A stretch of DNA of 64,000 nucleotides from the NCBI GenBank assembly GCA_023819375.1, contig JAMWDI010000005.1, positions 124,001 through 188,000 of the forward strand, read 5' to 3'. Origin of the DNA: Candidatus Omnitrophota bacterium (lineage in GTDB: Bacteria > Ratteibacteria > UBA8468 > B48-G9 > JAFGKM01). The notes beneath the pieces are model-generated. The model was not told where the DNA came from and did no database searches. It worked only from the letters and a program-made list of their open reading frames with translations. The position numbers and the translations under genes are program-made. This document shows positions 36,053 through 62,905 of this stretch, piece by piece; positions within the stretch are counted from its first letter, which is position 1, and the number at the start of each line of letters is the position of its first letter.

Positions 36053-36747
36053 GAAGATTTTTCCCATTCTGCATCACTTATAAAAACATTATAATCTCTA
36101 AAAGCAAGATTTAAAACTTTTTGTTTAAAATTATAATAATGCCAGAAACATCTAACAATAGGAACTTGTCCTCCAAATCCGTGCATTGATTGCCAAATTT
36201 TTGCTTCTTTCCAAGTAACTATTCCATCTCCATTTGTATCTGCTTGTTGAATTTCTTCTGGAGTATGGGTACTTTCAAACCACTTACAATGGGTTGGAGC
36301 AAATTCATAAGTGTAAGAACATTTTTCAATATTAGGGTTTCTATAACTATATGCAACTGTATCAAACTCAGAAGGAGTATAGGAATAATAAATCTGAACC
36401 TTTGATAATGGAATATCATTTATTTCAGGAAAGGCTGGATTTCCATGGCCCCTTGTCCCTTTATTTAAATCAGTTAGACATAGAAATATTTTACCTGTTC
36501 CGAGATAATTTGTCCCAAGTCCAATAACTTCACTTTTACATAAATTTGAAAGCCACACAGGATATTCGTCATAATCTTGATAATACATTTCAATAGCAAG
36601 TCCTATCTGATGAAGATTATTTATACAGTTTGCCTGTCTCCCCTTTTCTCTTGCAGTTGAAAGAGATGGTAAAATTTGACCTGCAAGCATTGAAATTATT
36701 GCAATTACAACTAAAAGTTCAATTAAGGTAAAACCTGTTTTTTTCAT
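36046..36747 (-). CDS. Second DUF1559-type prepilin
   Basis: A 233-aa protein with the leader MKKTG, then [20 protein letters not shown] and STAREKGRQANCINNLHQIGLAI. The C-terminal H-X9-DG signature is replaced by HYYNFKQKVLNLAFRDYNVFISDAEW, a variant seen in some members. A region near residue 165 (ADTNGDGIVTWKEA) resembles a dockerin or EF-hand calcium loop. It overlaps the HEAT protein start by 1 bp. Confidence 0.82.
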   Translation of the reverse strand: MKKTGFTLIELLVVIAIISMLAGQILPSLSTAREKGRQANCINNLHQIGLAIEMYYQDYDEYPVWLSNLCKSEVIGLGTNYLGTGKIFLCLTDLNKGTRGHGNPAFPEINDIPLSKVQIYYSYTPSEFDTVAYSYRNPNIEKCSYTYEFAPTHCKWFESTHTPEEIQQADTNGDGIVTWKEAKIWQSMHGFGGQVPIVRCFWHYYNFKQKVLNLAFRDYNVFISDAEWEKSSY

Positions 36748-55679: not shown

Positions 55680-56429
55680 ATGGAAAAAATTATAACAGAG
55701 GGAATTATTAAAAGTTATATGGATGATTTACTTAAAAATATAGAAGTTGATGTTGTAATTGTAGGTGCAGGACCAAGTGGACTTGTATGTGGATATTTTT
55801 TAACAAAGAACGGAGTTAAAAGTATTATTTTTGAGAGAAATTTAAAAATTGGAGGGGGAATGCCAGGAGGAGGAATGATGTTTAATAAAATTGTCGTTCA
55901 AGAGGAGGCAATGGAAATTTTGAAAGAGTTTAAAATAAGATACAAAAAATTCAAAGAAAAATATTATATACTGGATGCCATAGAAACAATTTCAGGAATT
56001 ACATATAAAACAATAAGAGAAGGAGTTAAAATTTTCAATCTAATTAATGTTGAAGATGTTGTCATAAGGGATGAAAAAATAAGTGGAGTTGTTATAAATT
56101 GGACAAGCGCTTCAATAGCAAAATTCCATGTAGATCCATTATCAATTATTTCAAAATATGTTGTTGATGCAACTGGTCACGATTGTGAAATATGTAAAAT
56201 TGTTGAAAAAAAAGTTGGTGGAATAAAGGTTATGGGCGAAAAATCTATGTGGGCTGAAAAAGGTGAAAAAGAGATAGTTGAAAATACAAAAGAAATATAT
56301 CCTGGTTTAATTGTTTGCGGAATGGCTGCAAATGCTTTCTTTGGTTCACCGAGAATGGGAGCAATTTTTGGTGGTATGTTTTTATCTGGCAAAAAGGCAT
56401 CTGAAATTATAATCAAATCAATAAAATGA
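55680..56429 (+). CDS. thi4: Thiazole synthase Thi4 (sulfide-dependent type)
   Basis: A 249-aa FAD/NAD-fold protein. Blocks VVIVGAGPSGL, GGGMPGGGMMFN, VVDATGHDCE and FGSPRMGAIFGG are typical. Position 150 is His in FHVDPL, where suicide yeast and plant Thi4 have the sulfur-donating Cys. It should therefore be a catalytic enzyme that uses free sulfide and iron, as in methanogens. This fits an anaerobe. Close relatives are ribulose-bisphosphate-forming R15P isomerases, which differ in partners. Confidence 0.87.
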   Translation: MEKIITEGIIKSYMDDLLKNIEVDVVIVGAGPSGLVCGYFLTKNGVKSIIFERNLKIGGGMPGGGMMFNKIVVQEEAMEILKEFKIRYKKFKEKYYILDAIETISGITYKTIREGVKIFNLINVEDVVIRDEKISGVVINWTSASIAKFHVDPLSIISKYVVDATGHDCEICKIVEKKVGGIKVMGEKSMWAEKGEKEIVENTKEIYPGLIVCGMAANAFFGSPRMGAIFGGMFLSGKKASEIIIKSIK

Positions 56430-57825: not shown

Positions 57826-60800
57826 ATGGATTATTATGAAGAACTTCTTTTACGTTTAAAACTTTTAAATCCTGGGACAAAATTTTTCTTAAGTAGATTA
57901 TTAAATAGGGAAAAGGTAATTTTTCTTGAAAGCCTTATTGAGATACTTAAAAAAATTAATGAAAAGGAAGAGGAGGTAAGGCATTTAACAAGAGAGAATA
58001 TGATTAAAAAAACAGAAGAAATGAGAAAATTGATTTCTAAAGGAGAACCTCTTGATAATTTTCTTGTTGATGCTTTTGCCCTTGTTAGAGAAGCTGCGAG
58101 AAGAACATTAAATATGAGGCATTTTGATGTTCAAATTATAGGAGGGATAGTTTTGCATTATGGTAAAATAGCAGAAATGGCAACAGGTGAAGGTAAAACA
58201 CTTGTAGCAACATTACCTTTATTTTTAAATGCTCTTTCAGGAAAGGGATGCCATCTTGTGACAGTAAATGATTATCTTGCAAAAAGAGATACTCAATGGA
58301 TGGGTCCTATTTACGATTATCTTGGACTATCTGTTGGATGTATTGTATCTTATAAAGAAACAAAAGATCGATATTCTTCTATTGCTTATAAATTTGATCC
58401 AACTCATCTTCCTCCTGATTCAAGATTTTTATATTTAAGACCTATTTCAAGAAAAGAAGCATATTTATGTGATATTACTTATGGCACTGGTAGTGAATTT
58501 GGCTTTGATTATTTGAGAGATAATATGGCTATAAGAAAAGAAGATCAAGTTCAAAGAGAATTGAATTATGCAATTATAGATGAAGTAGATTCAATTTTAA
58601 TTGATGAGGCTCGAACTCCTTTAATAATCTCTGGCCCAAGCGAGGAAAGTCCATCTTTATATTATGAAGTTGACCGTCTTGTAAGAAAACTTGTAAAAGA
58701 TAAAGATTATATTGTTGATGAAGAAAATCAAATCGCCACTTTAACAGAAGAAGGGATAAAAAAATGTGAAAAACTTTTAAATATAAGCAATTTATTTGAT
58801 GGGACACACACAGAACTTGTCCACCATATAAATCAAGCATTGCGTGCCCATAATTTCTTTAAAAAAGATAAAGAATATGTTGTAAAAGATGGGCAGGTAA
58901 TAATTGTTGATGAATTTACTGGAAGATTAATGCCTGGAAGAAGGTGGTCTGATGGTCTTCATCAAGCAATAGAAGCAAAGGAAGGTTTGAAAATTGAGAG
59001 TGAAAATCAAACACTAGCAACAATTACCTATCAAAATTACTTTAAACTTTATAAGAAAATTGCTGGTATGACAGGGACTGCTTTAACAGAAGCACTTGAA
59101 TTTAAAGAGATTTATAAACTTGATGTAATAGTAATTCCAACAAATAAACCTTTAAGAAGAACAGAATATGACGATGAAATTTATGCAACAGAAAGGGAAA
59201 AATTTAATGCAATAGTTCGTGAAGTAGAAGAAATGTATAAAATAGGAAGACCTGTTCTTATAGGGACTATTTCAATAGAAAAAGCAGAAAAATTGAGTAA
59301 ACTCCTTGAAAAGAAAAATATACCTCACAAAGTTTTGCATGGGAAAAATCATGAAGCAGAGGCAGCAATAATTGCTCAAGCAGGGAAATTTAAAGCAGTT
59401 ACTATTGCAACCCAAATGGCTGGTAGAGGTGTTGACATAATTCTTGGAGGAAACCCTGAAATTCTTGCAAGAGAAGAAACAATCAAAGTTTTATGGAGTA
59501 GAAAAAAAGATAAAAAACAAGTTAAAAGTGAATTTATAGAAATTATAAATGAAATTGAAGAAAAATATAGGAATAGATTGGAAGAAATTGAACAAAAATT
59601 TTCACAGCAATTAAAAAATTTAAAAGAAAAAATTACAGAAAAGGAAAAAATTATCTCAAACATAGAAAAGGAAATAAGGGACAAATTTGAAGAAGAAATT
59701 TTTAAGAAAATTGGAGGAGAAAGATTTGAAAAGTATAAAGGGAAACTAATAAAGTTAAAATCAATTTATGAAGCCAATAATCAAAAATTGCAAGAATTAA
59801 ATGTCCAATTTAAAGACAAACCGGAAAGATTAAAAGAAATAAAAGAAACAACAGGGAAAAGTTTTAGAGAGTATGTCAATTTTAAAAATTATATAAAGAG
59901 AATTTTTGGAATTTATACAAGAGAAGATATAGAGGAAAAGAGAAAATTATTTCTTGAATTTTTAGAAAAGGAAGAATTTAACAACCAATTTTTAACGCAT
60001 TTAGAAGATTTTAAAAAAGTTATAATTTCTTATTTAAAAATCCTTGAAGATACCTATCCTGATATACTCCTGAAGGAAGAAACAGAAAAGGCAAAAAAAA
60101 GAATTACAAGATATACTGATTTTCTTGAAGAAATCAAAATATCATCTACAGAAAAAAATTTTGCTGAAATAAAAGATAAAGAATTTCAATTTTATAAAGT
60201 TTTAGAAGATTCCCTAATAGAAATTGAGAAAAAAATCTATGAAAAAATCTATCCATCATATCTGGAAATGGAAAAAGAATATGAGCAATTGATAAGAGAG
60301 TATGAAAGAGAACAAATAAAATATACAGAAGAATTAAAACTCGCAAGAGAAGCGTATGAAAAAGAAAGAGGACAATATGAAGAGGAATGGAAAAAAATAA
60401 AAGAAGAAATGGAAAGACGGCCGGAAGAATTTAAAGAAATTTACAACGAATTACTTGAAAAATATAAAAAGCCGTGGGAAGAAGAACATAAAAAAGTTGT
60501 AGAACTTGGGGGCCTTCATATAATTGGGAGTGAAAGATATGAAGCAAGAAGAATAGATAATCAATTGAAAGGAAGAGCAGGAAGACAAGGAGATCCTGGT
60601 TCATCAAAATTTTTCCTTTCCTTAGAAGATGATCTTTTAAGAATTTTTGGGGGTGAAAGGTTAAAGGGATTGATGGGGAAATTGCCTGAAGGAGAAAAAA
60701 TAACGCATCCTTTAATAACGAAGATGATAAATAACGCTCAGAAGAAGGTAGAAGGGAGAAATTTTGAAATAAGAAAAAATCTTTTTGAATTTGATAATGT

Positions 60801-61566
60801 TTTAAATGAGCAAAGAAATATAATTTATTCAATAAGGCAGGATATTCTTGAAAATAAAAATCTTTCTCAGTATATAAATGATTATGTTGACGAAATAGTA
60901 GATACTGCTTTTGATGAATTTCTTAATGAAAAAATTAAACCTTATATGTGGAATATTGATGGACTTTGTAAATATTTCAAAACAAAATTTGGAATAGATA
61001 TTGAAATTAAAAAAGAAGATATTCCAAAAATAGATATTGTCTGGAGAGAAAAATTTAAGGAACATGTAAAGAACATTTTCAAAAATATTATTGAGGAAAA
61101 AGAAAAACAAATTGGAGAATTTTTTGAAGAAATAAAAAGGTTTATATTCCTTCAAAGCATTGATAATAGATGGAAAGCACATTTGAAAGCAATGGATGAA
61201 TTAAGAGAAGGAATAGGCTTAAGAGCATATGCCCACAAAGATCCATTAATTGCCTATAAACATGAATCTTTTCAATATTTCCAAGAGATGTTAAAGGCAG
61301 TAAAAGAAGAGGTTATTGGATATCTTTTAAAAATACAAATAACTGAAAAGGTCGCATTAAAAGTTAGAGAAACAGGAAGAAGAGAATTTATCCATCCAGA
61401 ATATAATCAGTTTGAAACAGCAAAAAAAGAAATTCCGACAGCAACTATCACAAACCAAATGCCTGTTAAAGCTGCACCTATCAAAACTCAAAAAATAGGA
61501 AGAAATCAACCTTGCCCTTGTGGAAGTGGAAAAAAGTATAAACATTGTTGTGGAAAAAATGTTTAA
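57826..61566 (+). CDS. secA: Preprotein translocase ATPase SecA with large NBD2 insertion
   Basis: A 1246-aa protein against about 800-1000 for most SecA. Normal landmarks are MATGEGKT (~118-125), DEVDSILIDEARTP (~251-264), the MAGRGVDIILGG block starting at residue 531, GGLHIIGSERYEARRID from residue 895, GRAGRQGDPGSS, and the C-terminal zinc motif CPCGSGKKYKHCCG (SEC-C). Between residues ~546 and ~890 is an inserted, highly charged helical segment rich in Glu and Lys, probably coiled coil. In E. coli this spot holds only about 40 residues. The protein should still be functional; the insertion may contact membrane or ribosome. It starts after AAAGGAAAGG. Confidence 0.95.
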   Translation: MDYYEELLLRLKLLNPGTKFFLSRLLNREKVIFLESLIEILKKINEKEEEVRHLTRENMIKKTEEMRKLISKGEPLDNFLVDAFALVREAARRTLNMRHFDVQIIGGIVLHYGKIAEMATGEGKTLVATLPLFLNALSGKGCHLVTVNDYLAKRDTQWMGPIYDYLGLSVGCIVSYKETKDRYSSIAYKFDPTHLPPDSRFLYLRPISRKEAYLCDITYGTGSEFGFDYLRDNMAIRKEDQVQRELNYAIIDEVDSILIDEARTPLIISGPSEESPSLYYEVDRLVRKLVKDKDYIVDEENQIATLTEEGIKKCEKLLNISNLFDGTHTELVHHINQALRAHNFFKKDKEYVVKDGQVIIVDEFTGRLMPGRRWSDGLHQAIEAKEGLKIESENQTLATITYQNYFKLYKKIAGMTGTALTEALEFKEIYKLDVIVIPTNKPLRRTEYDDEIYATEREKFNAIVREVEEMYKIGRPVLIGTISIEKAEKLSKLLEKKNIPHKVLHGKNHEAEAAIIAQAGKFKAVTIATQMAGRGVDIILGGNPEILAREETIKVLWSRKKDKKQVKSEFIEIINEIEEKYRNRLEEIEQKFSQQLKNLKEKITEKEKIISNIEKEIRDKFEEEIFKKIGGERFEKYKGKLIKLKSIYEANNQKLQELNVQFKDKPERLKEIKETTGKSFREYVNFKNYIKRIFGIYTREDIEEKRKLFLEFLEKEEFNNQFLTHLEDFKKVIISYLKILEDTYPDILLKEETEKAKKRITRYTDFLEEIKISSTEKNFAEIKDKEFQFYKVLEDSLIEIEKKIYEKIYPSYLEMEKEYEQLIREYEREQIKYTEELKLAREAYEKERGQYEEEWKKIKEEMERRPEEFKEIYNELLEKYKKPWEEEHKKVVELGGLHIIGSERYEARRIDNQLKGRAGRQGDPGSSKFFLSLEDDLLRIFGGERLKGLMGKLPEGEKITHPLITKMINNAQKKVEGRNFEIRKNLFEFDNVLNEQRNIIYSIRQDILENKNLSQYINDYVDEIVDTAFDEFLNEKIKPYMWNIDGLCKYFKTKFGIDIEIKKEDIPKIDIVWREKFKEHVKNIFKNIIEEKEKQIGEFFEEIKRFIFLQSIDNRWKAHLKAMDELREGIGLRAYAHKDPLIAYKHESFQYFQEMLKAVKEEVIGYLLKIQITEKVALKVRETGRREFIHPEYNQFETAKKEIPTATITNQMPVKAAPIKTQKIGRNQPCPCGSGKKYKHCCGKNV

Positions 61567-61591
61567 ACTTATTTGAAAAAAGGGGTAAAAA

Positions 61592-62905
61592 ATGGAAAAA
61601 GAAAAATTTTTTTTGTGGGAAACTGTTTTAAAAAATATAGAAAAAACCCTTAACAATTCAAGAACTTTTGATCTTTGGATAAAACCCTTGAAACTTGTAG
61701 ATATAGAGGGAAATATAGTAAAAATTGAAATCCCAACACTTGCTTTTGAAAAAACATTTATGCAGTTTAAAGATCTTGTCAAAGAAGAATTTTATAAGGT
61801 TTTTGGCTTTGTTCCTGAATTTGAAATTATATATCCTATTATTGAAGGTCAGGAAGAAAAGGAAACTTCTTTTTCATTTGAGAATTTTTTAAACCCAGAA
61901 TATACTTTTGAAAATTTTGTTGTCGGCCCCTGTAACCGTCTTGCACATGCTGCTTCTCTTGCTGTGGCTCAAACTCCTGGTATTGCTTATAATCCTCTTT
62001 TTCTTTACGGAGAGGTTGGACTTGGAAAAACACATTTAATGCAAGCAATAGGGCACTATGTAAAAAAAAGAAGCAATCTCAAAATTTTCTATATGCCTGC
62101 TGAGTATTTTGTAAATGAATTTATAACAAGTATAAAAAATAAAACAACTCATATTTTCAGAAATAGATTTAGAAATTTAGATTACCTTTTAATAGATGAT
62201 ATACATTTTATTGCAGGGAAGGAAGGAACACAGGAAGAATTTTTTCACACATTTAATTTTCTTTACAACAATAGAAAACAGATAGTACTTTCAAGTGATA
62301 AACCACCAAAAGAAATAAAATTTTTAGAAAAGCGTTTAGTATCACGATTTGAATGGGGGCTAATTGTTGATTTACAAGTTCCAGATTTTGAAACAAGGGT
62401 AGCAATAATAAAAAAGAAGTGTGAATTAAGAAAAATTAATCTTCCAGAAGATCTTGTTTTTTACATTGCAGAAAAAATTAAGGATAATATAAGATTAATT
62501 GAAGGTGTTATAAATAGTTTGGCTGCTAGTTCTACTTTGTTAAATATGGAAATTGACAAAAATTTAATTGATGAAAATATTGAAAAATTATATAATTTTA
62601 AAAAAGAAGAAAAGAAAGTCATAGGATTAAAGAAAATTACACAAGTTGTTTGTGAGTATTTTGGAATAACAGAAGAAGAAATAAAAAGTGAAAGAAGAGT
62701 AAAAAATATTATTTTGCCAAGACAGATTGCTATGTATTTAAGTAGAGAATTTACAGAAAGTTCTTTAAACTCTATTGCTTTTGAATATGGTGTAAAGGAT
62801 CATACAACTGTGTTGCATGCTTATAGAAAGATAAAAAATTTAATTGAGAAGGATAAAAATTTAAAAGATGTTATAGAAACTTTAAAGGAAAGAATAAATG
62901 AATAA
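61592..62905 (+). CDS. dnaA: Chromosomal replication initiator DnaA
   Basis: A 437-aa protein in the standard order: N-terminal domain I (to ~85), short linker, AAA+ domain with LYGEVGLGKTHLMQAI and LLIDDIHFIAGKEGTQEEFFHTFN, and C-terminal DNA-binding domain IV with KDHTTVLHAYRKI. It is preceded by AAAAGGGG at an 8-nt spacing. It lies 25 bp after secA and 103 bp before dnaN. Confidence 0.96.
   Translation: MEKEKFFLWETVLKNIEKTLNNSRTFDLWIKPLKLVDIEGNIVKIEIPTLAFEKTFMQFKDLVKEEFYKVFGFVPEFEIIYPIIEGQEEKETSFSFENFLNPEYTFENFVVGPCNRLAHAASLAVAQTPGIAYNPLFLYGEVGLGKTHLMQAIGHYVKKRSNLKIFYMPAEYFVNEFITSIKNKTTHIFRNRFRNLDYLLIDDIHFIAGKEGTQEEFFHTFNFLYNNRKQIVLSSDKPPKEIKFLEKRLVSRFEWGLIVDLQVPDFETRVAIIKKKCELRKINLPEDLVFYIAEKIKDNIRLIEGVINSLAASSTLLNMEIDKNLIDENIEKLYNFKKEEKKVIGLKKITQVVCEYFGITEEEIKSERRVKNIILPRQIAMYLSREFTESSLNSIAFEYGVKDHTTVLHAYRKIKNLIEKDKNLKDVIETLKERINE

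Follow-up and report, generated by a model that had tools for sequence, protein, structure and literature searches.

A predicted helical domain of about 300 residues at the variable (VAR) site of SecA in a clade of Candidatus Omnitrophota / Candidatus Ratteibacteria

The DNA analyzed here, called the window throughout, is a stretch of 64,000 nucleotides from a genome assembled in 13 contigs (1.73 Mb, 94% complete). The secA gene lies on the plus strand at 57826..61566 and is an intact open reading frame with an ATG start, encoding the sole SecA of the genome (1246 amino acids). This protein is a true general SecA, scoring 1136.6 bits against NF009538 (cut-off, 814) and 1046.4 bits against TIGR00963 (cut-off, 800), and all SecA2 models scored below cut-off against it. 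It contains the Pfam domains SecA_DEAD (PF07517), SecA_PP_bind (PF01043), SecA_SW (PF07516), P-loop_SecA (PF21090), and SEC-C, the last being the C-terminal zinc-binding motif at residues 1226-1244 (61501..61557, plus strand; PF02810, 37.7 bits). An extra NBD1 segment was placed at residues ~175-207 (58348..58446, plus strand); the placement is approximate and comes from the register of phmmer residue numbers with T. maritima SecA (3din, 3jux, and 4ys0). Its position is that of the insert of ~50 amino acids found in Thermotogales and Aquificales, and other members of the clade described below carry this segment too.

In the window, secA precedes dnaA (57826-62905). At two other loci, secA lies before dnaA and dnaN (L066) or adjoins them (L067), with a DUF721-like gene in both; this neighborhood is possibly near the replication origin. 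No conspicuous candidate partner gene was seen next to secA in the window, L066, or L067. Upstream in the window, at 55680-56429, a translation read by eye corresponds to a Thi4-like thiazole synthase (a ribose-1,5-bisphosphate isomerase-like FAD protein), whose gene is closely upstream of efp and tRNA-Phe.

Between GGNPE (residues 541-545) and GGLHIIG (from residue 895), the window SecA has 349 residues, encoded at 59461..60507 on the plus strand. The site is in NBD2, in the loop of the VAR (variable) hairpin, directly after helicase motif V (MAGRG.D). The initial annotation had given this segment about 345 residues (59460-60507) against about 40 in E. coli SecA, and the count bears this out. 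The segment is 21.2% Glu, 17.5% Lys, 10.6% Ile, and 8.3% Leu, so that Glu and Lys make up 39% of it, compared with ~10% each in the remainder of the protein. In most predicted helices, column-averaged hydrophobicity had a helical periodicity (3.5-3.7), and the period was significant against shuffles in residues 570-630, 666-694, 720-748, and 751-772. Composition, period, and an all-helical AF2 model agree with the earlier description of the segment as coiled-coil-like and rich in Glu, Lys, Ile, and Leu. About 20 other assemblies have the same insert in frame, and chance, misassembly, or a frame artifact was therefore ruled out.

In 92 SecAs from outside the clade, measured exactly, motif V and GGLH were 7-74 residues apart (median, 41). 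For 144 further genomes, distances were read by hand from paired matches, and the longest were ~143 (G215) and ~141 (G332) residues once raw gaps of about 138 and 136 residues had been corrected. Within the clade, the same distance was 352-379 residues. The insert is longer than any other measured at the VAR site (~230 SecAs sampled outside the clade, 7 to ~143 residues), as had been supposed from the window alone. The segment therefore has the site of a VAR, between motif V and GGLHIIG, and a length beyond the range of other SecAs (7-143). Long SecAs also occur elsewhere (G131, G368, G062, G057, G103, G225, and G079); in those that were read, the extra length was away from the VAR, which was 7-64 amino acids long or missing. 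A 2075-amino-acid SecA at L068 (G079:C240) has hardly any VAR and carries very large insertions in PPXD/NBD1 and in the C-terminal helical region, and a 1354-amino-acid SecA reading frame (G296:C32, ~36323-36691) has an ordinary VAR and its additional length in another place.

Structure was predicted with AF2. A model of residues 1-1180 had a pLDDT of 79, and its SecA core best fit the SecY-engaged SecA 6itc (TM, 0.91 over the target); a model of the insert alone had a pLDDT of 88.8 and a pTM of 0.68. Helices were present in both models at residues 544-561, 570-630, 632-661, 666-694, 699-715, 720-743, 751-772, 779-808, 812-862, and 866-893. The insert is thus predicted to be an all-helical stalk of two long helices with a helical-bundle tip. 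All of its parts are encoded on the plus strand. The N-terminal base of the VAR hairpin (residues 541-562, GGNPEILAREETIKVLWSRKK, 59446..59511) contains the predicted helix 544-561 and has the GGNPE-type start common to ordinary VARs of other phyla. It is followed by the first long stalk helix (residues 570-630, 59533..59715; period 3.62, P = 0.002), the distal bundle or tip of several helices (residues 632-808, 59719..60249), and the second long stalk helix (residues 812-864, 60259..60417), the last delimited by both models and by conservation. The C-terminal base helix of the hairpin (residues 866-894, PEEFKEIYNELLEKYKKPWEEEHKKVVEL, 60421..60507), also placed from AF2 and conservation, is similar to its counterpart in the VARs of other phyla, for example, that of L065. 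This homology rests on position and inspection by eye, since comparing the insert profile to a VAR of 48 amino acids recovered only GGNPE..A... The two ends, together about 45-50 residues, correspond to an ordinary VAR hairpin, and the net new domain comprises about 300 residues (~563-864). In the 1180-residue model, pLDDT dipped at the stalk root (563-567 and 859-864), so that a flexible stalk, as opposed to a rigid one, is possible.

Foldseek matches of the insert had E values of 0.06 or worse, and VIA Z scores were at most 10.8, below the ~13 often reached by helical bundles by chance. The stalk matched hairpin coiled coils (VIA Z up to 9.8 over ~90 residues), and the tip overlapped four-helix-bundle matches with Z scores of about 8-11, a common arrangement. 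Because these structural matches are weak, we describe a stalk and a tip and claim no family. No transmembrane-like segment was found in the insert, with a hydropathy maximum of 0.07-1.34 over 19 residues across all members. A membrane anchor was rejected on this ground; the initial annotation had suggested that the insert may reach the membrane, and insertion into it is not supported.

The insert profile gave matches in 21 of 21 sub-clade genomes, the window's own counted, a tally that includes one short chance-level match outside secA (G034; E value, 0.003). Twenty insert bearers were listed, from families f1 and f3 and genus g9, two of them with split or partial genes. The same profile search found no SecA with the insert in the remaining 14 class genomes. 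A seeded scan of a genome set of 84,980 species found it only in the clade titled Candidatus Omnitrophota / Candidatus Ratteibacteria; a hit had to contain one of two conserved peptide patterns, so that diverged relatives may have escaped detection. In a SecA tree built without the insert, the bearers formed one clade (support, 100/99) with genus g7 as sister. The insert was probably gained once and then inherited vertically; loss in g7 is a possible alternative history. Capture of a domain from another protein was rejected, as a search of the 35 class genomes with the insert profile turned up no second copy. Against the PDB, the profile found no relative and no SecA chain, only coiled-coil matches (best E value, 0.03), and a Pfam scan of 18 inserts found no family common to most members. 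The initial annotation had allowed that the insert might be a documented clade feature. It is a clade feature, and a description of it was not found in the open library searched, which leaves most subscription papers outside.

At the same site, the sister genus g7 (L050-L055) has a Cys-rich module of ~46 residues with eight conserved Cys in a metal-site-like pattern (C...CCI.CEDDC..CFK.RKF.EC....I.CGLH). Cys clusters at the VAR site also occur in unrelated SecAs, strongly in L073 and less so in L072, L079, and L084, which suggests that the VAR may repeatedly have been turned into a metal or redox element.

The insert is under purifying selection. Its dN/dS (NG86) was 0.14-0.27, compared with 0.03-0.11 for the core, with several dS values above 1. 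Its length is stable across the clade, and an alignment of 18 members has 29 invariant columns, among them those of the GGNPE start. Mean pairwise identity between genera was 0.78 in the N-terminal base helix and 0.60 in the C-terminal base helix. In the half of the second stalk helix nearest the base (839-864), where R841, Y844, E845, E852, W855, E860, and E863 are invariant, it was 0.59. The lower half of the tip is least conserved (0.19-0.23), and tip helix 666-694 has three nearly invariant residues, K670, E674, and R681. The part of the insert that adjoins the motor is the most constrained.

A comparison of SecA cores identified 15 residues that characterize the insert bearers, being fixed in them and found in no other member of the class. 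A group of eight lies directly upstream of the insert, in an NBD2 stretch at residues 487-536 (59284..59433, plus strand): S487A, N505H, A506G, Y508N, K511A, K518Q, N530Q, and T536V. In a clustering test, 0 of 5,000 shuffles were as clustered (P < 0.0002). In the sister genus g7, used as a control, the 13 such residues were not clustered (P = 0.90); for families f5 and f4, each represented by three sequences, the P values were 0.03 and 0.05. Outside the clade, N505 and A506 were each invariant in 99 of 99 SecAs and N530 in 96 of 99. All 20 bearers have LHGK for LNAK and TQMAGRGVD for TNMAGRGTD, and LHG presumably resembles the SF2-helicase consensus at the LNAK/LHGK position. Co-fixation on one branch is a correlation and not coupling, and it could reflect another selective change in SecA; it nevertheless locates a motor change next to the insert.

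We tentatively favor, at somewhat under an even chance, an enlarged VAR that acts in cis and retunes the ATPase cycle. The VAR-loop site, the motor-proximal conservation, and the changed neighboring motor motifs argue for this reading. An accessory helical domain would have grown in the loop of the VAR hairpin on NBD2, the second motor lobe. Its stalk, rooted beside motif V, would bias the opening and closing of NBD2, and that bias would determine how fast ADP is released and ATP is turned over. LNAK to LHGK, TNMAGRG to TQMAGRG, and S487A would be the motor's adjustment to the insert, and the tip may modulate the cycle further through clade-specific contacts, either self-contacts or contacts with partners. 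The E. coli VAR reportedly regulates ATPase activity and ADP release (Das et al. 2012, by its title as cited in PMC6620043), and ADP release is the rate-limiting step (PMC4907695). Size counts against the enlarged-VAR reading, since ~300 residues far exceed the need of an ADP-release regulator. The VAR is also reported to be dispensable for growth in E. coli, so that the role of a VAR need not be important.

The enlarged VAR is favored over a docking arm, in which the stalk would bring the tip to the ribosome, SecYEG/SecDF, the membrane surface, or a lineage-specific protein; we consider such an arm possible and rather doubtful. Two predicted helices of ~50-60 residues would give a long reach, and the stalk weakly matches antiparallel coiled-coil arms, including those of SMC, Rad50, and the dynein stalk. 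The last of these bears a microtubule-binding tip and is a model for a docking arm. The Lys/Arg-rich root (WSRKK) is conserved, as are the three nearly invariant residues of helix 666-694. However, the tip is the least conserved part, which is unexpected with a conserved partner, and the insert offers no transmembrane segment. No enlarged SecY or uL23 partner was found: both SecY (437-462 amino acids) and uL23 have ordinary sizes, whether or not the genome carries the insert. For these reasons, docking on a universally conserved partner is not favored, and the early suggestion of a reach to SecYEG or the ribosome keeps its place only as a less probable option.

A mechanical or sensory arm seems unlikely. 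Here, events at the tip (contact with a partner, a nascent chain, or a second SecA) would be linked to the NBD2 nucleotide cycle, with motifs IV-V rebuilt as the receiver. If true, the Sec motor would have an allosteric input of a type not described before. Self-association, with the arm making or stabilizing a SecA dimer or oligomer through helix pairing, is distinctly unlikely; helical, charged, amphipathic arm segments and a proposed precedent in the NBD2 insert of 76 amino acids of Thermales (PMC7023208) are consistent with it, and the weak conservation of the lower tip argues against it.

We regard structural padding or thermostabilization as improbable; here, a surface loop that tolerates change would have lengthened in a lineage that is thermophilic and AT-rich, and would have been kept mainly for stability. 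Several members come from hot-spring or hydrothermal MAGs (habitats read from names), but the names AS06 digester, Zod (Zodletone), and SulCav suggest habitats that are not hot. The VAR is a hot spot for change, at 7 to ~143 amino acids elsewhere, and the dN/dS of the insert is ~two to five times that of the core; against this stand the clade-stable length, purifying selection, and invariant residues, and clustered motor substitutions would be unexpected. The weakest reading, a substrate-holding chaperone that replaces SecB, as the initial annotation had offered, fits a genome without SecB and is nonetheless highly improbable, since SecB is absent from 35 of 35 class genomes, including 14 without the insert, so that its loss does not explain the insert and compensation for it was ruled out, and since the all-helical insert has no SecB similarity (no Pfam match to PF02556 in 18 inserts scanned).

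SecA is essential and among the most conserved bacterial motors. A stable domain of ~300 residues beside the ATP site, together with co-fixed changes at otherwise invariant residues, amounts to a natural experiment on how NBD2 controls the ATPase cycle. The role of the VAR, which is unsettled, can in this way be tested directly by a single deletion and three reversions. Genes of this lineage would be misjudged by SecA models and by length filters.

Several known systems resemble parts of this arrangement. The SMC and Rad50 arms and the dynein stalk likewise have two long helices that lead to a distal helical element and are rooted in or near an ATPase. With Foldseek E values of 0.06 or worse and VIA Z scores of at most 10.8, in the common helical range, the matches do not establish homology. 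Among SecAs, lineage-specific inserts of 50 and 76 amino acids are known from thermophiles (Khadka et al. 2019, PMC7023208). The 50-amino-acid Thermotogales/Aquificales insert, at whose position the window SecA seems to carry one too, is located in NBD1, the other lobe (PMC7023208). The 76-amino-acid Thermales insert at the NBD2 periphery is likewise a large lineage-specific surface insert on the same lobe (PMC7023208), but it has about a fifth of the length and no sequence similarity was found between the two; the phmmer match to 2ipc is interrupted near residue 497, which suggests a different site. The closest comparison is the VAR of E. coli SecA in NBD2, which occupies the same site from motif V to GGLHIIG, and the ends of the insert are like ordinary VAR hairpins. 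The clade insert differs from it in length (349 residues, compared with 7-143 elsewhere), in its separate stalk and tip, and in the change of otherwise invariant NBD2 residues. The insert is a new, extreme variant of a known variable site and not a new kind of system.
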